From a virus: a DNA stretch of 22,959 bases. The DNA lies in the IMG/VR virus record IMGVR_UViG_3300009470_000010, positions 1-22,959 of that record. One strand, given 5' to 3'. How positions within the stretch are numbered: the first letter of the stretch is position 1; each line of letters opens with the position of its first letter. The translations under genes were made by a program, and so were the position numbers. Shown here piece by piece: positions 3,565-15,410 of the stretch. The notes under the pieces are model-generated. The model searched no databases. It had not been told where the DNA came from and saw only the letters and a program-made list of their open reading frames with translations.

Positions 3565-6518
3565 TAGTAGGTTCCATCGTCCACCACGCCGATGGTCATC
3601 TCGCCAGTGCTGTTGTCAACCAACACCTCTGTGGACTCCAGTACCACGCCGATTTGAGAGGTCGTAGCGATTTGCGCTCGTCCCCATAGCAGTGTCAAAG
3701 CATCACGGACGTCAGTCACGCCCGTCATGTCAGGCGTAAAGTAGGTGCCGTCGCAAAGGATGTCGTAGTCGTTGAACGTGCCGGTGGCACCAGACACGAC
3801 GGCGACTTTGGTCCAGTTGGCACCAGTGCCCTGACTGAGGACCCAGTCACCAGCGGCCAAAGACGCGACAGGAGCTGGCGTTGTACCCGTGCCAGCAGTC
3901 GTGACGATCAGGTAGACGCCGTTGTTTTGTGGGTTAGGAGCGGTCAGCGCTTGGCCGACAACGAGACCACCTTCGACGCCGTACTGGTTCAGCGTGACGA
4001 CTGTGTTGGTGCTGGCGTTGTAGGTGCCACCAAAGCGGAGGTTGAGCTGGGTTGGACTGCCGTAACCAACTAGCAGCCAGTAGCCGTTGGGTGTTGGTGC
4101 GACGGTGCCAACCCAGATGTAGGCCGAGCGGTCGGATGGGTTGATCCACCACTGGCCGGCAAACTCAGGTGTTGGGGCGCTTTCGCTGACTTGCGCGATG
4201 CCGTAATCGGCAAGTTGCTGGGCGGTGACGCTGTTTTCGGCAAGAAGATTGGAGCCAAAGACGCCGGTAGTGATCTTGCTGGCATCGAGGTTTGGGATGT
4301 CAGCGGCATTAAGCGTTGCGCCGGTGGTGACGTGCCCCTGGGCGTCGATGGTGACCTTGGTGAAGGTGCCCGTGGCGGCGCTGTTGCTGTGGTTCAGTAC
4401 GCCAGCGCCAGTGACGGTCAGGCCAGTACCCGGCTGGACGGCACCGTTAGTGCCGCTGACGGCGATCGGCAGATCGGTTGCGACCAGTGCGCGGAATGTG
4501 GGCGCTGCTGCAGCACCAGTAGCCGGGGCAGCAAAAACCGTGCCAGCTGTTTGGTTGTCGAGGCTGGTGGTGATCGTGGCGCTGAAGTTGTCGGGTTTGG
4601 TAACCGTGAACGCCAGCGGGGTGGTGTCGCTGAAGGTGATGGTCTGCAGGGCAGCCACCTGCTGCCAAGTTGCACCAGTCCAGACGTAGGTCAAGCCGGT
4701 ATTGGTATTGATCCAGCCCTGACCCTCGAAGTCGCCGCTGCCGCTGGGGGCGTTGCCGCTGACGACTGTGCTCGAGTCGGCTGCCAGCTTGAGGCCGGTT
4801 ACAGCACCAGCAGCCAGCTTGCCGGTGGTGACATTGGCATCAAGGATCTTGGCGGTGGTGACTGCATCGGCGGCAATGGTTGCCGCAAAGGTGCCCGTGC
4901 CCGTGCCGGTGACATCACCGGTCAGCGCAATCGTCTGGTCACCGGTGTTAGTACCGCTGGTGGTGCCGGAGTGGGTACCGCTGAACGTGCCGCTTTGAGT
5001 GGCCAGAGTCCCAAGCCCCAGCGTGGTGCGTTGGTCGCCGGCACTGGCACCAGCGATCAGTGCGCGGCCGGCACTGGTGCAAGTGATCTCTTCAACATCA
5101 CCAGCGCCAGCACTGGATCGACCCAGCAGCTTGTCTGTAGCACTAACGTTCTGGATCTTGGCGTAAGTGACCGCATCGTCTGCAATTTTGGCCGTTGCTA
5201 CAGCCAAGTCGGCCAGTGCAGTGGTATCGACAGCACCAGCACCCAGCTTGTCAACTGTGACGGCATCATCAGCAATCTTGGCTGTGGTGACAGCGCTGTT
5301 GATGATCTGGCTGGTGGCGATTGCGTCGGCGGCAATCTGCGTCGTGGTTACCGATGCACCAGTCAGCTTGGCACCAGGGACACTGGCATCAGCCAAGTTC
5401 AGCTTGGCGTAAGTGATCTGGGTGTCGGCAATCTTGCCAACCGTGACCGCGCTGTCAGCGATCTTGGCGTTGGTGACGGCAGCAGCAGCCAGTTTTGCCT
5501 CAGTGACGGCGCTGTCAACAATGGCAGCCGTATCGACAGCATCATTAGCTAGTTCGCCGGCTCCAACTGCATTGTCTGCGATAGCATCAGCCGTGACGGA
5601 ACCAGTGGCTAACTGGTCAGCGGTAACGGCGTCGTCTGCGATCTTGGCCGTGGTGACGGCATCATCAACCAGCTCGACAGTGCCGACCGAGCCAGCGCCC
5701 ATCTGGGCAGTCGTGATCGAGTCGGCCGCGATCTTGGCGCCTGGAACACTGCCGTCGGCTAGGTCGAGTTTGCCGTAAGCAATCGTGGTGTCGGCAATCT
5801 TGACGTTGGTGACCGCACCAGTGCCAAGCTTGTCGTTGGTGACGGCGCCAGTGGCGATCTTGGCCTCGGTGACGGCGGCGTTGACGATGGCAGCGGTATC
5901 TACCGCATTGTCGGCCAGTTCTGCTGCACCAACGGCATTGTCCGCAATGGCGGCTGCATCAACAGCACCAGCCTGGAACTTGGCGGATGTGATGTTGCCG
6001 TCAGCGATCTTGGCGGTTGTGACTGCGCTGTTGGCGATAGCAGCCGTACCAAGGCCGGCGGCGTCGATTTTGGCGGTGGTGACTGCGTTGTCAGCAATCT
6101 TGCCGGTCGTAACGGCCAGATTTTCAATGCCGGCAGTCGGGGCAATGACTTGCTGGAAGGCGCTGCCGTCCCAGACGCTTAGGTATTTGGTGCTGCTATC
6201 GACGTGGCCGCGACCCTCGAAGTTGTCGGAGACAGGTGCAGTCGGGCCGTAGTTGATGCTGGAATCGTTGGCCAGCTTGGCTGCGGTAATCGCATCGTCT
6301 GCCAGCGCCGTGGTGCCAAGCTTGGTGGTGCTGCTCTGATTGAGCTTGACGAGGTCGATGCTGGAGCTGTCCGCCAGCGTTGCGCCAGCCTCGAACAGGT
6401 CTTTGGCGGTGACCTTCTTGGTTTCGCTGGCCGAGATGTCTACGATGGGCAGGACGTCGATACTGGCGACGTCAGCCTCGGAGAGCTGGGTTAGCTGCGT
6501 AATTCTCTGGTCAGCCAT
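3564..6518 (-). CDS. Repeat-rich proximal tail fibre / virion structural protein
   Basis: This 984-residue protein starts with MADQRITQLTQLSEADVAS, an adaptor-like segment. Residues 135-457 consist of about thirty decapeptide repeats with the consensus AVTtAKIADd, expected to form a long trimeric beta-structured shaft. Three tryptophan-rich motifs (about 92-124, 590-622, 780-817; for example GLTYVWTGATWQQV) punctuate the chain. The C-terminus (DVRDALTLLWGRA, IGVVLESTEVLVDNSTGEM, ending GVVDDGTY) is a conserved-looking tail I associate with cyanophage structural proteins. The ATG has a GGAG site upstream (CCGGAGCTGGCGC before ATG). It sits between two tail-tube-like proteins and the distal fibre, so it probably links the tail tip to the S74 fibre. 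No enzymatic residues are seen. Confidence 0.85.
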   Translation of the reverse strand: MADQRITQLTQLSEADVASIDVLPIVDISASETKKVTAKDLFEAGATLADSSSIDLVKLNQSSTTKLGTTALADDAITAAKLANDSSINYGPTAPVSDNFEGRGHVDSSTKYLSVWDGSAFQQVIAPTAGIENLAVTTGKIADNAVTTAKIDAAGLGTAAIANSAVTTAKIADGNITSAKFQAGAVDAAAIADNAVGAAELADNAVDTAAIVNAAVTEAKIATGAVTNDKLGTGAVTNVKIADTTIAYGKLDLADGSVPGAKIAADSITTAQMGAGSVGTVELVDDAVTTAKIADDAVTADQLATGSVTADAIADNAVGAGELANDAVDTAAIVDSAVTEAKLAAAAVTNAKIADSAVTVGKIADTQITYAKLNLADASVPGAKLTGASVTTTQIAADAIATSQIINSAVTTAKIADDAVTVDKLGAGAVDTTALADLAVATAKIADDAVTYAKIQNVSATDKLLGRSSAGAGDVEEITCTSAGRALIAGASAGDQRTTLGLGTLATQSGTFSGTHSGTTSGTNTGDQTIALTGDVTGTGTGTFAATIAADAVTTAKILDANVTTGKLAAGAVTGLKLAADSSTVVSGNAPSGSGDFEGQGWINTNTGLTYVWTGATWQQVAALQTITFSDTTPLAFTVTKPDNFSATITTSLDNQTAGTVFAAPATGAAAAPTFRALVATDLPIAVSGTNGAVQPGTGLTVTGAGVLNHSNSAATGTFTKVTIDAQGHVTTGATLNAADIPNLDASKITTGVFGSNLLAENSVTAQQLADYGIAQVSESAPTPEFAGQWWINPSDRSAYIWVGTVAPTPNGYWLLVGYGSPTQLNLRFGGTYNASTNTVVTLNQYGVEGGLVVGQALTAPNPQNNGVYLIVTTAGTGTTPAPVASLAAGDWVLSQGTGANWTKVAVVSGATGTFNDYDILCDGTYFTPDMTGVTDVRDALTLLWGRAQIATTSQIGVVLESTEVLVDNSTGEMTIGVVDDGTY
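5337..5585 (-). repeat. Super-repeat copy 2 (fibre residues 312-394)
   Basis: The encoded segment starts AIADNAVGAGELANDAVDTA and runs through YAKLNLADASVPGAK. It is the partner of the copy at 5703-5951, with identical repeat phasing but diverged codons. Confidence 0.75.
5703..5951 (-). repeat. Super-repeat copy 1 (fibre residues 190-272)
   Basis: The encoded segment starts AIADNAVGAAELADNAVDTA and runs through YGKLDLADGSVPGAK. It aligns without gaps over 83 residues with the segment 122 residues further on (5337-5585), indicating an internal segmental duplication. Confidence 0.75.
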
Positions 6519-6552
6519 GCGCCAGCTCCGGCTACAGCAAAAAGTCTTCTAG

Positions 6553-6559
6553 CAGTTTA
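6553..6559 (-). promoter_or_regulatory. TAAACTG variant of the gap motif upstream of the proximal fibre
   Basis: TAAACTG starts with the TAA stop of the preceding gene and lies 34 bases before the fibre ATG at 6518. It differs at one base from the TAGACTG seen at three other gaps. Confidence 0.25.
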
Positions 6560-7429
6560 GTCGGTGACTTCAGTCAGGAGGAAGTCAAGATTTTGTTGCA
6601 GGCGCAGGCGGTCGGTGTCCTCCTTGAGGATGTAGCCCGAGGGCTCACCGATCAGCAACTTGATCTCGCCAGTAGTGACGAAGTCGATGGCGCAGTTAAT
6701 GGTTTGATCTGGCGCTACCTCGATTCCAGTGCGCGTGATCATCGCCTGGAACTCGTAGTAGATGTCTTGGGCGTTGGAGTAGGCGTCGTCTTCGGTCAGT
6801 TGCAGGTAACAGTCGAACTCGCTGCCGATGTCGGTACGGTTAATGAGTTGCAGCATCAGCAGCGGATTCTCCACCAAGCCGCTGTTGCTGGTGTTGAAGA
6901 TGCAGTCGATCGAGCCAGAGCCGCTGATTAGACCAGCCGAGTACATCCGCTTGAAGCGGTCGGACATGGTCGTGGTTTCCAGGGACTCGCGGTCAGTGTT
7001 AAAGCTGAAGCTCCTGACGTCACCAAGAACGCGCTCGACTGACCCGTAAATCTGGACTGGAATATCAATGGCGCTACCAGTAAAAGCCTCTACCGGATAT
7101 TCAGAGCTGCGGTCATTGTTGATGGCGGCGCTAAATGTTTCAAATAAGCGGATGCCACCAATGGCGTTGATATTGGAGTAGGCAACAACTTCGTTAAGAG
7201 TCGCGCCACCGCCGTCAGGCCAGGTGGAAGTTGGCAAAAAGTCCAGGCCGCGTGGATCGTCGGTGCTGATGACTAGCTGGTCACCTGTAAGCAGGTTCTC
7301 GACCGAGCCATCGAAGCTGAAGCGGTTGAGGATAGTGTTGACGTCTGCAGGCAGAACTGAGCTGACAAATGTGCCAGCCGCTTTACGGCGCAGTTTGACC
7401 TTGCCGTACTGCCCTAGGAAGTACGTCAT
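6557..7429 (-). CDS. Tail-tube-like protein B (290 aa), with inserted domain
   Basis: The protein begins MTYFLGQYGKVKLRRKA, a first strand resembling the N-termini of the major tail protein and of the next gene upstream. Residues 20-135 form an extra domain. Residues 137-275 contain DVRSFSFNTDRESLETTT followed by MYSAGLISGSGSIDC, matching the W/F-S-x-x...E..E-T-T-T core of tail-tube proteins. The C-terminal segment (about 255-290) is LIGEPSGYILKEDTDRLRLQ followed by QNLDFLLTEVTD. The ATG overlaps the previous stop (ATGA), so it is coupled to tube-like protein A. Its location after the J-like tip protein suggests a distal tail or fibre-anchoring ring rather than the main tube. The tail-tube assignment is by motif similarity within this window and is not proven. 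Confidence 0.7.
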   Translation of the reverse strand: MTYFLGQYGKVKLRRKAAGTFVSSVLPADVNTILNRFSFDGSVENLLTGDQLVISTDDPRGLDFLPTSTWPDGGGATLNEVVAYSNINAIGGIRLFETFSAAINNDRSSEYPVEAFTGSAIDIPVQIYGSVERVLGDVRSFSFNTDRESLETTTMSDRFKRMYSAGLISGSGSIDCIFNTSNSGLVENPLLMLQLINRTDIGSEFDCYLQLTEDDAYSNAQDIYYEFQAMITRTGIEVAPDQTINCAIDFVTTGEIKLLIGEPSGYILKEDTDRLRLQQNLDFLLTEVTD

Positions 7430-7917
7430 GCGTCAATCAGTTCGCGGAAGGGTCCGTCTACGGTGAATTGGATGGCAACAGACGACAGCTCGCCAGTAGA
7501 CACCTGCATCGAAGCGCTGGTGATGTATGCGTTGAAGGCGATGTCGTCTTTGATGTCAGCAAAGCCAGCGGTTTGACCGACGCGCAGAACAATGCCGACG
7601 CGGTCAGACTCGGTAACGCCAGCAGTGCTGGTCTTCATGATGCGGTTCAGAAACTGATCGAACTGCACGCCGGGTTCGGTGCTGGTCGTGCCTTCGCGGC
7701 GGTAATACAGCACGGTGGCGCTACCGGTCGAGCTGACGGCACCAGGGGTATAGCTCTTGACGGCTGTGTCAACGGTGGTGGTCTCAAGCAACTCGAGGCT
7801 GGTTTCCAGTGACCAGTCACGCAGCTTAAGTGCTTGCTCAGTGCTGCTAGGGCTAACGCCGCCGCTGCCGACAGAGGTCAAAAACAGCGCGCCAGTGCGC
7901 CCGGTAAAGAAGGCCAT
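7426..7917 (-). CDS. Tail-tube-like protein A (163 aa), compact
   Basis: The protein begins MAFFTGRTGALFLTSVGSGG. Its core, LRDWSLETSLELLETTTVDT (Trp at residue 35) followed by YTPGAVSSTGSATVLYY, parallels QSWSFEISRAEIDVTTIGQT and the GSGTATVYV stretch of the major tail protein in this same window. The C-terminal part (AFNAYITSASMQVSTGELSS, then VAIQFTVDGPF) matches the final strands of that fold. At 163 residues it is about the size of a minimal tail-tube domain with no insertion. It follows the J-like gene after a 26-base gap holding a TAGACTG motif and overlaps protein B by four bases. The probable role is an extra ring or hub at the tail tip; it could also be an alternative tube subunit. 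Confidence 0.75.
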   Translation of the reverse strand: MAFFTGRTGALFLTSVGSGGVSPSSTEQALKLRDWSLETSLELLETTTVDTAVKSYTPGAVSSTGSATVLYYRREGTTSTEPGVQFDQFLNRIMKTSTAGVTESDRVGIVLRVGQTAGFADIKDDIAFNAYITSASMQVSTGELSSVAIQFTVDGPFRELIDA

Positions 7918-7939
7918 GGTAGGCGTAGCTTGATGGTGT

Positions 7940-7946
7940 CAGTCTA
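7940..7946 (-). promoter_or_regulatory. TAGACTG motif at stop/gap upstream of tube-like protein A
   Basis: TAGACTG begins with the TAG stop of the J-like gene and ends 22 bases before the ATG at 7917. No Shine-Dalgarno sequence is obvious in this short gap, which makes an independent signal plausible but unproven. Confidence 0.35.
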
Positions 7947-10900
7947 GCGCTGGATAGTAAACAGGTTGTCGCTGAAGTCTGCAATTAAGGAGTTGTCGGC
8001 CGCATCACACGGGAAGATGGTGCCGCGGACGGTGACTTCGCCCTCTTCGTCCATCTGGACTTCGTTGACCCGGTAGACACGGCGGGACTTGACCTTGGTG
8101 CCAAGGACATAGAGGTAACCTTCGCGGGAAGCGAGGCTTGCCGCGATACCGTCACTGACTGTGGCGGTGGTCTGGATGACGCCGCCACCGCTTTGATACA
8201 GCAGGAACGAGTAGCTGCCGTTGCGGACCACGTTGTCCACCGGGGCGTTCAGCTTGCCGCCGGGGCCGATGACGCCAGTCGTTATGCCGTCCCAGGTGTT
8301 GTGGCCGATGTCCACATAGATGTACGCGCCAGGGGAGATGGGGCTTGTGGTCGGGAAGGTCTTGAACTCGATGGCCGAACGGACGTAACGGCGCGTGTTG
8401 CACATCAGCTTGCCGAACAGGATGGCCTGCGCTTCGTTCGTGACGAAAGCTGAGGCATCAAAGGACTGCAGGATGGCATTGGCGGCGTTGGTGTCGCGGC
8501 GTTGCACCGTGATCGACCGGTTGACGGCAAAGGTGCCATTGCTGTCAAGGGCGCGGTAGATGACAGTGGCGATGATGTCCTGAACGTTCGAGTCGTAGTC
8601 CAGAAACTCTTCCTTGTAGCTGTCTTCAAGGATGTTGCCTTGGTTGAACAGGGCGCTGACTTGGATTTGCCGCTGGATCGCGCCAGTGGATGGGTTATAC
8701 GGGACGCTAGGGATCAGGGTTTCGCGGCCGCCGATGCGGGCAAACTCCAGCAAGCTGAAGGGTGCATTGGCTGCCCAGAAGCTGCGCCAGTTCTGGCGGT
8801 CAGCAATCAAGGCGTCCATGTACAGGCCGTTGGTGCGGCAGAAGCGCTTGCTGATTGCCAGTTGGCGGATGTCGATGCCGCTGATCTGGGCGTAGTTGCC
8901 AATGCCATCCAATGCATCGAGAACTGTGTCCAGGAAAATGTCAGGCGCAAAGCTAGTCGGACCATCCGGCGAACTCGGGTAGTAACGATAAGCTGCGCTT
9001 CCCCAGGGATTCCCAAATTCGTCGTTGCCGGATGTACGCAGGCGGCGGACTGGCTTGCCGCCGGTGACAAAGGCCGAGAACGAGCGCATGTCCTGCAGGC
9101 TTTTGCCGCTGAACACGTTGAAGCCGATCAGCGCTAGGCCGGAGTACAGGCGGGATGTGAAGGTTTGTGTCAGTTGCTCGCTAACGGCGGTGATGCCCAT
9201 CTCGGGGCCGCGCTCGAACGAGGTTTGTAATTGAGTATCGGCATCCAGACTGAACCAGTCCCACTCGTTGGTGCCGTTGGGTGAGTCGTTCAGTGGTGGC
9301 AAACCGCTGGGCTGGCTGTTTTGCGTGAAGCCGGTGAAGTACAGCGCCCGACCAGAGCCGAGGTCTAGGGTGCCCGCATTGCCTGAGTTCTGCAGGTAGA
9401 AGTACCGCACCAAGCCATTGGACTGGCGCATGAAGCTGTGTTTGGCAATCTCGGCCAGTGGATCGACAACGGGCTCCAACCGAAACTGCCAGTTCTGGGC
9501 GGTGGCGCCGCCGTTGAACTTGATATAGATGAAGTTGTCCTGCTCGGCTGCGCGGCGAATGGCAAAGATGCCGGGGGCTGTGCTCCATGCGCCACCGGCG
9601 ATGCGGTAATGCAGCAGGAACATCGACACGCGTTGCTGGGTGCCGTTGTCGCTGATGGCATAGCCGGCACGGCGTTCGCTGCCGTAGGTTTGCTGCCTGC
9701 CTGAGATGCGGCGATAGACCTGTGCCTTGAGGGCGATGTCAGCAATGTTGCAAGGCGAGACAGTCGTGTACGACGCCTCCTCAACGCGAGCAATTGCTTT
9801 TAGGTAAAACAGGTCGTCGCTGCCGACAGTTGCCAGTGATTGCGCGTTTGTGTATTGAATTAGTGCCGATTTTTCGGCTTCGGTTAAGTTGCGCTTGAAC
9901 GTATAGTATTGTGTAGTGATTCCATGAGGGGCAAAGCGCGAATAATTGCCAGTAGTCTGGCTAGCTAGGGTCCAGATCTGCCCAGAACGCAGCAAGTCCT
10001 CGGCTGTATTGACAGAAAACCGTTGCTCTGCTGGCAGGGATACGGCCGATTGGCCAAAGGCTCCTCCTTCGATCACGCTGCGTACATTATCCCTGCCATC
10101 TTCTTGCAGCAGGTTATTAACAATTTTCTGGCTATTGGTGTATTCAGGCTGGGATTTGTAATCTGCTGCTGTGTCTGAAACTTCGTCGTAGCCGTACGGC
10201 AGGGATGGAGCGCGGCCGGCTTCGATGCAGACCAGATCAACAAAAAATTCTCCTTCGTCGGTGGTCGTGCCAGTAATCCGATTGGTACGGAAACGAGCGG
10301 AGCCGAGTTTGAAAATGCCAGCGTCATCGAACACACTGGCCAGTGTGCGGCGTGTGTCCATGGAAGTACGCACCAGGTCATCGTCGAATGAGGTGCCGTC
10401 AGGAGGATTTGCGGTGGATGCGAAGCGGACTTGGAGGGTCTGATTTAGCGGGATTACGGAGAGGGCGCCGTTGTTCCAGGCTTGGGAGTTAGCCGTGATT
10501 CCAATATCGGTGCTGCCTTTGTCGCCGGCTTCATTGCGTAGGTATGTTTTGACGTTGATTGGAACAGGACTGTAACCGCCGAGAATGTTCGAGCTGCTTG
10601 GGGAATAAGCCTGGCTGAAGCCGTCCACGCGAACATTATTGACGGCAGGCTGCAGCCGATAAGGGTTATCGTTCGTGCCGCCATATTTGGTTGGGTCCGT
10701 GTCGCCGGAAGCGTTTAGCTCATCGGCCCAGCGCAGGACGCCAGTGGCGTTGTCATTGAAGTAGATCCACTTGTTCTGGGCGATCAGGTCAGTGATGACC
10801 GTTTGACCGAAGGCAGATTTAAGCGGGTCGATCCGGGTGATGGCGCCACCAGCAAGCAACAGCAGCATTTGCAAGAACTGGTTGCTGCCATAGCTACGGA

Positions 10901-11692: not shown

Positions 11693-12153
11693 TGCAGAAC
11701 CAGTTGCGCGTCGAGTGGTAGCGGGCCGACCAGCTCACGGGTCAGGGTGCGGTTGGGGAAGTTGCTGGTGACGCTGTCGATGGCAGAACGGAACCGGAGT
11801 TCCAGCGTGGTGTCGCTGATGCTGCTGCCGACACCGACGTAGTACTCGACCTGCACGTTGTTGGTGTAGCTGCCGTCAGCGGTTAGCCAGACGGTGGTCA
11901 GCTCCAGCGTGCTCAAGCGGTTGCCGTCGCCGGCATAGAGCATGGCAACGGAGATGTCGAGATTGGGAAACAGGATTTGAAGGATGTTGTTCTCGCCGTT
12001 GAGGCTGGCGATAGCACCCTCGGCACGGAATGGCGCGAAGCTGTAGGTGCGGCCGCCGTAGACCTTGTTTTGGTTGGCGAAGTAGTTCTGAAACAAATGG
12101 CGGTTGCCGTTGCTGGTGGTCAGATTGAAGAACTGACAGATGCGGATGTCCAT
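11689..12153 (-). CDS. Minor tail protein, L-like by position
   Basis: This 154-residue beta-rich protein begins MDIRICQFFNLTTSNGNRHL and ends with SNFPNRTLTRELVGPLPLDA. The ending resembles the FP.RtlTrdlvG.lPl pattern of small tip proteins lying between the M- and K-like genes (DUF1833-type or lambda L-type). Unlike lambda L it has only one cysteine, so it cannot hold an iron-sulfur cluster of that type by itself. It overlaps both neighbours (TGATG with the upstream gene, GTGA with K), which implies coupled translation. The probable role is joining the tube end to the tip hub. The family name is tentative. Confidence 0.6.
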   Translation of the reverse strand: MDIRICQFFNLTTSNGNRHLFQNYFANQNKVYGGRTYSFAPFRAEGAIASLNGENNILQILFPNLDISVAMLYAGDGNRLSTLELTTVWLTADGSYTNNVQVEYYVGVGSSISDTTLELRFRSAIDSVTSNFPNRTLTRELVGPLPLDAQLVLQ

Positions 12154-12557
12154 CAGTCGTCAAGGCGTGGGTTGCGGATCTCGCCAACCAGGCTGACGCG
12201 GACGTTATTGAGGCCAGGTCGAATACTCTGCACCTCTGGTGGGTTGGCGTATTCCCAGCGCAGGCCGTCGATGCTGGCATTGGCACGAGTCGCCAGTGTG
12301 CTGGACATACCAGCAGTGACATTGCTGCTCAGGTTGAAGCGGCGATTGGCTGCGGTCTGGTTGCGGTAGTGATCCAGCAGAGCGACGACTGTTGCGTCTG
12401 AGATGCTGTCGAACTCAAGGTCAAGCTGGGCGCCGTACGGCGAATTGCCGTATGTCCGCTTGACGACTGCACCACTGAGGGCACGGTACGCCTTTTGTGG
12501 GTACACGCCGGGGCGGAAGCTGCGGCCGGTTGGTGTGATCGCGGGGAACGTGGCCAT
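12153..12557 (-). CDS. Minor tail protein, M-like / distal tail protein
   Basis: This 134-residue protein directly follows the tape measure, sharing a TGATG junction. It begins MATFPAITPTGRSFRPGVYP and contains GNSPYGAQLDLEFDSISD and LLDHYRNQTAANRRFNL. These match the pattern of small phage tail proteins that start FP...PSgR.f.pG.yp and contain a strand-helix core folding over the tube end. In lambda-like gene order this is the M position; the equivalent in other siphophages is the distal tail protein. No enzyme motif is present. Confidence in a tail-tip role is high; confidence in the exact family is moderate. Confidence 0.65.
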   Translation of the reverse strand: MATFPAITPTGRSFRPGVYPQKAYRALSGAVVKRTYGNSPYGAQLDLEFDSISDATVVALLDHYRNQTAANRRFNLSSNVTAGMSSTLATRANASIDGLRWEYANPPEVQSIRPGLNNVRVSLVGEIRNPRLDD

Positions 12558-14887
12558 CAGCGGATACCGATGCGGCTACGGGTTTGCGGGGATTGCTTGA
12601 TGCGATCCAGGGTCATGGTCATGCCGCGATTGGCGCCGTCGCGGGTGGCTTGGCGGCGGGTTTCGGTCATGGCCGCCTCCAGTTGATCTCTACTGACGTA
12701 CTCTACGCCGCCGATGCTGGTTGTCTGGAAGCTCATGTTGAGCACCGGCGACCCACCGCTGCCTGGTGCAGCGCCCATTGCATCGCGCAAGCCAGAGTTA
12801 GACACCACACTGCCGCTGGCGCCTGGCACGAATAGTTCGGGACCGTGCTCACCGACGACGTAAGGCGAACCAGCAGAGACGGGACCGCCGTTGGCGCGGC
12901 CTGGCATTAAATTCAATCCAGGAGTAAAGCCGCTTAATCCAGTTGCTGGGCCACCGCTGAATGCACTGCTGAAATTAGGCGCACCACCGGAGCCAAAAAT
13001 GCTACCACCGCCAATGCCCAATGCTTTGAGGATGGTGCCAAGGATGACCATAGTCACCTGTTGAGCGATGATTTGGGCGGCCATGTTGACGAAGTTTTCG
13101 CCGATGCTGTTCATCATTTTGGCCAAGGCTTCTTGAGCGCTCGACGAGCCGTTGATGATGTCTTGGAATGCATCACCAAATGCGGCGCCTATCATGTCGG
13201 CAGAAGCTACGGCAACATTTTCAAGATTGGTCACGTCTGCAATGCTATTTCTCAATTCCTCAAGTCGCGCTTGGGCAGGGCTTTTAATGTCAGCCGCAGC
13301 AATAGCTTTTTGTCTGTATTGCTCAATTTCTGCATCGCCAATTAGCAAACCCTGCTTGCGCAAATCTAAAATTTCAAATTCGATTTGACGCAATTTTTTG
13401 GCGGCTTCATCCCTTAAACCATTGAGTTCAATTTCGCGCTCAAAATCAGTTATTAGTTCTTGGTAACGTTCTTGGCGTTCTTCCTCATTTTTTGACAGCT
13501 CAAGCGCTGTACCGAGACGAATGCGTTCGGCTTCGGCAGTTGCATTTGCCAATGCTGCATCACGCTGCGATTGCGTTTCCGCCCTAGCTAATTCATCTGC
13601 AAGTTGATAACGAAGCTGCAATAGCTTCTCTTCGCCTTGCAACCTAATGACAAGCTGCTGGTCTTGCTGAGCTTGCGCATTGGCAATTTGCTCGTCAAGG
13701 AATGTAAGCTGTTTGGTCAGCTCTGTTTGTCGCTGCAACCCTTGCACTTGCGCTTGAATTGCGGCGGCGCGATCAGCGGCCTTGTCGGCATCGGACTTGC
13801 CTTTTTTCTTTTTGCCGCCGCCAGTTTCGCCAAGCAGTGCTGGCGTGACACCGGCTGGGGCTGTTGGCACCATCGCCGCTGGCTTTACTTGACCGGTTTG
13901 AATGCCATAAGCTTCAATTAAATCACGTTCACGTTGCGCAGCGAGTTGTTGAAATTGGCGATTGCGTTCAAACGGATCACGTACGCGACGCAAATTAACA
14001 ATTTTTTCCGCTTCAGATTGCGCTTGATTGAGTATGCCTCTACGCTGTTCTTGACCAAGACCAAAGCTTCTAGCTCTTGCCCCAGTTGCGATTAACTGAT
14101 TGATTGTATTGATTGCAAATATGGCTTCATTTAGAACAGCTTTAATTGCTGGGGAAAGCGCTGAACCTATTCCTCTGGCCAGGCTTTCAATGCCATCCTG
14201 CAAAGTTGATAATCGTCCGTTCAACGTATCACTCTGCGCAATAGCGCCATTGGCGTATTTGCCGCCAGCGCTGGTTAAACGCTGAATCGCTACTTCAACA
14301 GCCTTGGCACCGATGCGGCCTTTTTCCAGCGCTTTCTGGAATTCATCTCCAGACAGGCCGTACATTTTGCGCAGCTCTGCCTGCAGTGCAACGCCACGCT
14401 CTTGGAACTGCAGCAGCTCTTCGCCTTGCAACCTGCCTTTGGCCTGCACTTGGCCGTAGGCAGTGACCAAGCCTTGCAGCTCGGCACCGGTGGCACCGCT
14501 TACGTCGGCCAGCCGCTTGGTGGTCTCTACGACGTTGTTCGCCTCAACGCCAAATGCCTGCAGTCGTTTTGCTGCATCAACAAGTTCTGTGCTTGTAAAC
14601 GGTGTTACCGCACCCAACTGCTGCAGTTCCTGAATAATCTGCTTTGCTTTTTCTGCGCTGCCCGTCAGCACTTGGAGGCTGCGGGTTTGGCTTTCTAGTT
14701 CTGCCGTTTTGGCAAATATAAATTTAACCGCTTGAATGCCAGCAAATGCAGCAGCTAGCTTTCCAACAGCAGCACCCAGGCCGTCAAATGCCCGTTGCGT
14801 TGCGCCAGCCTGTGACTGCACGTCACGCAACTTGCTGACGGCCCCGCGGCTGTCAACGTTAATAGCAACGTTTGCTACGACAGACAC
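12557..14887 (-). CDS. Tape measure protein
   Basis: This 776-residue, mostly helical protein sets tail length and is extruded during infection. By the usual rule of about 0.15 nm per residue it predicts a tail near 115 nm. The N-terminal tape-measure domain has the VTPFTSTELVDAAKRLQAFG signature around residues 94-113. A basic, low-complexity KKKKGKSDADKA stretch lies near residue 355, followed by long charged coiled coil. A hydrophobic segment spans residues 601-625 (NMAAQIIAQQVTMVILGTIL). A glycine-rich C-terminus follows, with GEHGPELFVPG near 679-689. The start is GTG at 14887, three bases after the stop of the chaperone-downstream frame. The middle third (about 13200-14150) is visibly AT-richer than its ends. 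No peptidase domain is seen. Confidence 0.93.
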   Translation of the reverse strand: MSVVANVAINVDSRGAVSKLRDVQSQAGATQRAFDGLGAAVGKLAAAFAGIQAVKFIFAKTAELESQTRSLQVLTGSAEKAKQIIQELQQLGAVTPFTSTELVDAAKRLQAFGVEANNVVETTKRLADVSGATGAELQGLVTAYGQVQAKGRLQGEELLQFQERGVALQAELRKMYGLSGDEFQKALEKGRIGAKAVEVAIQRLTSAGGKYANGAIAQSDTLNGRLSTLQDGIESLARGIGSALSPAIKAVLNEAIFAINTINQLIATGARARSFGLGQEQRRGILNQAQSEAEKIVNLRRVRDPFERNRQFQQLAAQRERDLIEAYGIQTGQVKPAAMVPTAPAGVTPALLGETGGGKKKKGKSDADKAADRAAAIQAQVQGLQRQTELTKQLTFLDEQIANAQAQQDQQLVIRLQGEEKLLQLRYQLADELARAETQSQRDAALANATAEAERIRLGTALELSKNEEERQERYQELITDFEREIELNGLRDEAAKKLRQIEFEILDLRKQGLLIGDAEIEQYRQKAIAAADIKSPAQARLEELRNSIADVTNLENVAVASADMIGAAFGDAFQDIINGSSSAQEALAKMMNSIGENFVNMAAQIIAQQVTMVILGTILKALGIGGGSIFGSGGAPNFSSAFSGGPATGLSGFTPGLNLMPGRANGGPVSAGSPYVVGEHGPELFVPGASGSVVSNSGLRDAMGAAPGSGGSPVLNMSFQTTSIGGVEYVSRDQLEAAMTETRRQATRDGANRGMTMTLDRIKQSPQTRSRIGIR

Positions 14888-14890
14888 GGC

Positions 14891-15040
14891 CTACCTATGG
14901 CGTTGCTTCATTCTACGTTCTTGCTCTTCATTGAGCACATCAAAATAAGCTGACCACAGAAGCAGCTCTTCCATGGTCAGCTCTGCTTTTAAGCGCGTAA
15001 GGGTATAGCCCAGTTCTTTGGCCACACTCAGTTGCAGCAT
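14891..15040 (-). CDS. Second frame of tail assembly chaperone (GT-like extension, 49 aa as a stand-alone)
   Basis: The ATG at 15040 starts 7 bases after the stop of the chaperone gene and the frame ends at a TAG at 14891, three bases before the tape-measure GTG. The product is MLQLSVAKELGYTLTRLKAE, then LTMEELLLWSAYFDVLNEEQ, then a basic end. That matches the short C-terminal domains found between the chaperone and tape measure in siphophages, which are usually made only as frameshift fusions (lambda G/GT). The frame is open upstream to 15079 (KALKAELKRDNLL), overlapping the end of the chaperone gene. A fusion would need a +1 or -2 shift between 15048 and 15079. Independent initiation at the ATG, with GCGGGA upstream, is the alternative. 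The coding potential looks real either way. Confidence 0.7.
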   Translation of the reverse strand: MLQLSVAKELGYTLTRLKAELTMEELLLWSAYFDVLNEEQERRMKQRHR

Positions 15041-15047
15041 CAGCAGA

Positions 15048-15410
15048 TTATCCCGCTTTAGTTCTGCCTTTAACGCTTTTCATGTCCACCTCTTCGGTGT
15101 CCTCCGGGCTGGTAATAATCGCAAGCATCATGGCCTGCAGGTCACTATCCAGCACTTCGTTCTTCAGTTCAGCAATCTCGCCAGCTTGGAACAACCGCTG
15201 GCCTGCGTCGTCCGTTGCTTTGGTAATAAGCAGGTTCAACGCAAAGCCGTTGGCTTCATCACCGCCAGGCATCTTCTGCGCCCGCTCACGCTCGGCCATG
15301 GTTAATGGCGTCGCGTAAAACTCAAACACGCTGCCATCGTTAAGGGTAACAGTGCGCTTTGATGGCGTCAGGTTGGCTGCTTTTTTGAGGCGTGCAAGTG
15401 CGGTTGACAT
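15048..15410 (-). CDS. Tail assembly chaperone (G-like)
   Basis: This 120-residue acidic/helical protein lies between the major tail protein and the tape measure, the fixed position of the tail assembly chaperone. This protein coats the tape measure and recruits tube subunits. It contains TLNDGSVFEFYATPLTMAER, GFALNLLITKATDDAGQRLF and a C-terminal DLQAMMLAIITSPEDTEEVD, typical of this class. Its ATG overlaps the major tail protein's TAA (TAATG). The last codons (MKSVKGRTKAG) overlap an open +1 frame that continues as the GT-like extension. No lambda-type GGGAAAG slippery heptamer is visible. Confidence 0.82.
   Translation of the reverse strand: MSTALARLKKAANLTPSKRTVTLNDGSVFEFYATPLTMAERERAQKMPGGDEANGFALNLLITKATDDAGQRLFQAGEIAELKNEVLDSDLQAMMLAIITSPEDTEEVDMKSVKGRTKAG

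Follow-up and report, generated by a model that had tools for sequence, protein, structure and literature searches.

The window, by which we mean the whole stretch of 22,959 nucleotides that was analysed, carries the tail genes of an uncultured long-tailed phage that probably infects a cyanobacterium. An earlier note on this DNA had proposed that two extra tail-tube-like proteins, here called A and B, lie in its adhesion module and give, together with the major tail protein (MTP), three tube-fold paralogues. The three open reading frames were found at the positions given there, all on the minus strand and with the motifs quoted for them (Table 1). The gene order in the clade of the window is M-L-K-J-A-B-F1-F2, and the place between the tail terminator and the tail assembly chaperone and tape measure is held by the MTP gene, not by A or B, which follow J. 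Judging from its gene position and family name, M is probably the counterpart of the distal tail protein (gpM). The ATGA overlap of A and B suggests coupled translation; of 127 junctions, 114 had the same 4-base offset and 13 an offset of 0 (some contigs were counted more than once). After the tail assembly chaperone gene (15048-15410), an overlapping frame (+1 or -2) at positions 14880-15140 encodes ...LTRLKAELTMEELLLWSAYFDVLNEEQERRM..., a sequence that resembles the second portion of a frameshift product of the gpG-T kind.

Table 1. Genes and features of the tail region (nucleotide positions in the window; residue ranges refer to the proteins).
Feature	Position	Strand	Description
Protein A, 163 aa	7426..7917	-	Compact predicted tail-tube-fold protein without decoration domain; based on profile homology to MTP and B and on an AF2 model with tube-protein matches in the PDB
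Protein B, 290 aa	6557..7429	-	Predicted tube-fold core, residues ~1-13 plus 132-262
Protein B, other parts			~118-residue insertion (14-131) after strand 1; conserved C-terminal tail (264-290)
A-B junction	7426..7429	-	4-base overlap ATGA, B start codon on A stop codon
MTP, major tail (tube) protein, 255 aa	15410..16177	-	PHROG major tail protein, E 2.4e-9
MTP insertion			Own ~105 residues after strand 1 (~16-126)
J', tip/hub protein, 1120 aa	7944..11306	-	Cassette type with A-B (or M-A-B) behind
M, distal-tail-protein-like minor tail protein	12153..12557	-	phrog_15525 minor tail protein, E 8.5e-17
F1, tail fibre, 984 aa	3564..6518	-	First gene after B; conserved fibre N-terminus
F2, second fibre, 984 aa	402..3356	-	C-terminal Peptidase_S74 intramolecular chaperone domain

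The kinship of the three proteins was evident from several types of comparison. A phmmer search with A against 12 proteins of the window retrieved B (E 5e-7) and MTP (E 6e-4), all others giving E values of at least 0.3, and A also matched B in a genome search (E 7.3e-6). Family profiles were built from 69 A, 78 B and 81 MTP sequences, each without the other two families. Applied to the window, the A profile scored 38.9 bits against B and 37.3 against MTP, the B profile 34.0 against MTP and 22.7 against A, and the MTP profile 27.6 against B and 14.3 against A, all above the top scores reached with shuffled sequences (n=600; 6.8, 4.7 and 8.6 bits for the A, B and MTP profiles, respectively). The HMM-HMM alignment suggested in the earlier note linked both A and B to the tube protein, with hhalign probabilities of 96-97% for all three pairs when wider alignments were used (A-B 95.7%, A-MTP 96.9%, B-MTP 96.0%); A-B had been the one weak pair in earlier, narrower alignments (14%). 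The cores alone gave 96.4-97.3%, with no match between inserts and cores, and the M family, taken as a control, remained below 1% against all three families (M-A 0.5%, M-B 0.1%). Matches to PHROG major tail proteins were weak for A (E 0.0045) and B (E 0.011) themselves and firm for divergent relatives of A (down to 1.5e-12). Judged by sequence, A and B are homologues of MTP and members of the tail tube superfamily. The proposed count of three paralogues holds at this level and is incomplete by fold, as M and the hub-like protein L probably have tube-type folds too.

Structure prediction pointed the same way for A, the monomer model of which matches tail-tube proteins. The AF2 model, computed from 31 relatives (pLDDT 71), displays the tube beta-sandwich with its long hairpin and helix, and its leading Foldseek (E from 5.5e-6) and VIA matches in the PDB were all phage tube or tube-like proteins, among them the tube proteins of lambda, 80alpha, monocin, Sf11, GTA, R4C and SPP1. 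VIA Z scores ranged from 8.2 to 9.8, the best being obtained over 132 residues at an rmsd of 4.3. For B, modelled from 37 relatives, the insertion was mostly predicted at a pLDDT of 80-92 and the core at about 55; the best VIA match of this core was a tube protein (Z 7.5) and the leading matches were mostly tube or Hcp proteins, while no Foldseek match of the model had an E value below 0.001. Since the core model is weak, the tube assignment of B rests on the sequence comparisons above. The core motif that had been pointed out in A sits on the long hairpin (E31-47/E54-70). In tube proteins, a loop on this long hairpin extends to the adjacent ring, and the hairpin modelled for A may likewise take part in stacking.

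An insertion of about 100 residues at the same point of B and MTP had also been described. Its location was corroborated: both insertions follow the first strand and precede the long hairpin, at a point that is a short loop in A. Homology between the two insertions was, however, undetectable, with an hhalign value of 0.4% (E 0.16) and profile searches that gave no cross-match. Well downstream of A-B, three other loci encode small proteins (L198:9983-10423, L099:6656-7200 and L063:9724-10308) that weakly match the MTP insertion or the MTP profile; these matches may point to a decoration domain that is mobile as a module. The C-terminal tail of B (window positions 6557-6640) and of its relatives shows a conserved repeat-like pattern, xLLQExxDxIxLEQxxxxLLxE.

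The origin of A and B was addressed with a tree of the cores, in which A and B each formed a supported group of its own, distinct from MTP, and A joined compact tube proteins from other phages with weak support (87/69). In an AU test, constraining A, B and MTP to a single group gave p 0.21, a value that neither rejects nor supports duplication of the phage's own gene, and placing A with B alone gave a borderline p of 0.065. The tree and the AU tests therefore neither support nor reject the suggestion that A and B arose by duplication of this phage's tube gene. Elsewhere, two A/tube-like genes lie in tandem at the MTP locus of Synechococcus phage S-H1 (L193:11513-12354), where the A profile scores them at 45 and 58 bits. 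MED4-117, considered as a second case with two "major tail proteins", was set aside as a probable overlap of the ends of a linear record, because both copies lie at the record ends, each beside a neighbour gene of similar size.

At least 170 relatives of A were returned initially, and 420 when a divergent clade was used for the search; both families occur in hundreds of uncultured virus contigs while being barely recognised by the libraries searched. No relative of A was found in 84,980 bacterial and archaeal genomes, and tblastn returned no close relative of A or B from isolated phages, main tube proteins aside. MTP itself is 33.5% identical to the annotated major tail protein of S-2L and 86% identical to a protein of the Synechococcus phage Cyanophage KBS-S-2A, and the latter value makes a cyanobacterial host likely.

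The position of A and B after J and before the fibres was borne out across loci, and their linkage proved to be to the tip and adhesion cassette, not to the tube. For the linkage count, loci were recruited by MTP alone, which avoids selecting for A or B, and at least 1.5 kb of sequence behind J' was required. J' was followed by A and then B in 17 of the 18 loci thus recruited, and the contig of the remaining one (L115) has compact A and B plus an A domain fused to a spike. The order J-M-A-B was found in 65 of 80 further loci, most of the rest showing a truncated part of that order. In the divergent large clade the order is L-J-M-A-B-fibre, and this relocation of M beside A suggests that M, A and B act together. 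KBS-S-2A (L083), on the other hand, has a lambda-type J with fibre genes directly behind it and lacks A and B, an arrangement shared by S-2L; L120 and L176 also combine a lambda-type J with the absence of A and B, but their contigs end shortly after J. Because a near-identical MTP combined with a lambda-type J goes without A and B, the pair belongs to the tip cassette and not to the tube. KBS-S-2A, L120 and L176 have lambda-type K/I/J genes as against the short M/L/K/J' set of the window. Tail tips appear to be exchanged as whole cassettes on related heads and a nearly unchanged tube protein. At L097:8273-8753, A is split into two open reading frames, perhaps through a frameshift or a sequencing error.

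A fusion of A to a spike was encountered at locus L190, where an open reading frame of 885 aa (6001-8658) has an A domain (residues 1-143) as the N-terminus of a pectate-lyase-like tailspike. The A region matches the major tail protein family phrog_1407 (E 3.9e-8), and the spike matches phrog_2234 (E 1.4e-19) and Pfam Pect-lyase_RHGA_epim (E 2.9e-16). A compact A (8664-9089) and then B (9089-9979) follow the fusion; as the two A domains of this locus differ in sequence, the fusion is not a simple assembly repeat. The arrangement was seen on one contig only, no further A-spike fusion being found in the 80 further loci, out of about 420 A relatives, or by direct search with the fused domain.

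The fact that A and B travel with one tip type and its fibres points to extra tube rings that probably help to carry these fibres. In line with the earlier note, and by analogy with p140 of phage T5, we propose that A and B add one or two rings of tube fold to the distal end of the tube and that these bear the side fibres, a reading to which we give about an even chance. Lacking a decoration, A would serve simply as a spacer or collar, whereas the insertion of B would point outward as a platform on which F1 and F2 are seated, and the rings would stack via the long beta-hairpin with its conserved 'LETTT' motif. This proposal agrees with the homology of the three proteins, the predicted tube fold of A, the strict linkage to one tip and fibre cassette, the L190 fusion, the conserved A-B overlap, the presence of M beside A and the T5 precedent. 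The restriction of the fusion to a single contig and the weak core model of B count against it, as does JBD30, in which fibres are anchored via distal tail and upper baseplate proteins and for which the available part of the report describes no extra rings (PMC11445458). We identified no equivalent of the p132 collar of T5 in this phage. Moreover, the fibre after B has an N-terminal motif that resembles that of the fibres of KBS-S-2A, a phage without A and B; A and B are therefore not generally needed for such fibres, and anchoring by A and B in the present phage is what we infer from the points above. More tentatively, and with doubt prevailing, A and B could make up a heteromeric collar of lambda-type cyanosiphophage tails, a new type of fibre-bearing ring with subunits that can be fused to spikes, the tube fold serving as an interchangeable adhesin socket.

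A possible, though less probable, explanation is that A and B have an architectural role only, as rings inserted where the MTP tube meets the M/L/J' hub, with the fibres binding J', M or L. Such rings would be symmetry or length adaptors, comparable to T4 gp54 or to a spacer, required by this type of J'. The linkage to the J' type, the move of M beside A and the fibres with a similar N-terminus on tips without A and B would all be accommodated, and gp54 is an extra ring of that sort (PMC10038345). A purely architectural role does not, however, account easily for genes that lie beyond J and abut a fibre gene, for the A domain joined to a tailspike at L190, or for B, which retains an insertion superfluous for a plain spacer. 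We consider it improbable that A and B are minor alternative subunits along the tube, which would then be mixed or decorated: their fold and conserved hairpin are common to the tube protein, and the tandem genes of S-H1 make more than one type of tube subunit conceivable, but a near-identical MTP with another tip goes without A and B, so that the tube does not require them, and the pair was never at the MTP locus in the loci surveyed. Similarly improbable in our view is that A and B are non-virion assembly factors (for tip nucleation or fibre chaperoning) or remnants keeping the tube fold, since, despite the precedent of lambda gpK, which is encoded in the same gene region, is undetected in virions and is thought to be non-structural (PMC10721106), the solved tube-fold proteins matched are structural parts of virions or injection machines, and the strong conservation of A and B as a pair and the fusion to a spike speak against remnants.

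Little is known of how lambda-type siphophages anchor their side fibres, and the T5 authors state that p140 and p132 are restricted to T5-like phages and that anchoring would differ elsewhere (PMC10038345). With their wide occurrence, their tie to one tip cassette and a fusion to a tailspike found in nature, the two tube paralogues are an anchoring candidate that can be tested. A role in fibre-bearing rings would give a function to two barely recognised families, and the cassette pattern suggests that tail tips are swapped as units while the tube stays almost unchanged.

Known systems offer several points of comparison. The main tube proteins of a number of isolated phages are compact like A: those of Synechococcus phage S-H1, Prochlorococcus phage P-HS2, Roseobacter phages CRP-406 and CRP-811 and phage DSL-LC06 match the A profile at 30-58 bits, and tblastn with a divergent A sequence retrieved S-H1, P-HS2, CRP-406 and DSL-LC06 at E 9e-6 to 4e-5. 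These proteins differ from A and B in being main tube proteins by position, encoded shortly before the tape measure, whereas A and B come after J. Lambda gpM and gpL, the distal ring and a hub domain, are likewise tube-fold rings of a siphophage tip (PMC10721106); the window phage, however, already has separate M- and L-like genes, and its M is unrelated to A and B by profile. The T5 study also covers gp54 of T4, a phage with a contractile tail: it adds a tube-fold ring distally, where the tube meets the gp48 ring, and no fibre function is claimed for it in the accessible part of that study (PMC10038345).

The closest precedent is T5; no other phage with a comparable second tube-like gene at a siphophage tip emerged from a search of the literature. 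There, p140 is a tube-protein paralogue that lacks a decoration domain; its ring follows the last ring of the tube and lies inside the p132 collar, which bears the side fibres. It shares 9% identity with T5's own tube protein, and its origin is ascribed to a tube gene duplication (PMC10038345). Both phages have a tube-protein paralogue encoded in the tip or baseplate region together with side fibres, and A resembles p140 in being a tip-module tube paralogue without decoration, whereas B has its insertion. Profiles of divergent A and B relatives gave chance-level rows only against PDB sequences, with no match to p140. T5 differs in having a single such protein, which as a trimer builds a pseudo-hexameric ring, while its collar is formed by another protein, the Ig-fold p132; the window phage has two single-domain paralogues, one of them with an insertion, within a lambda-type gene order.
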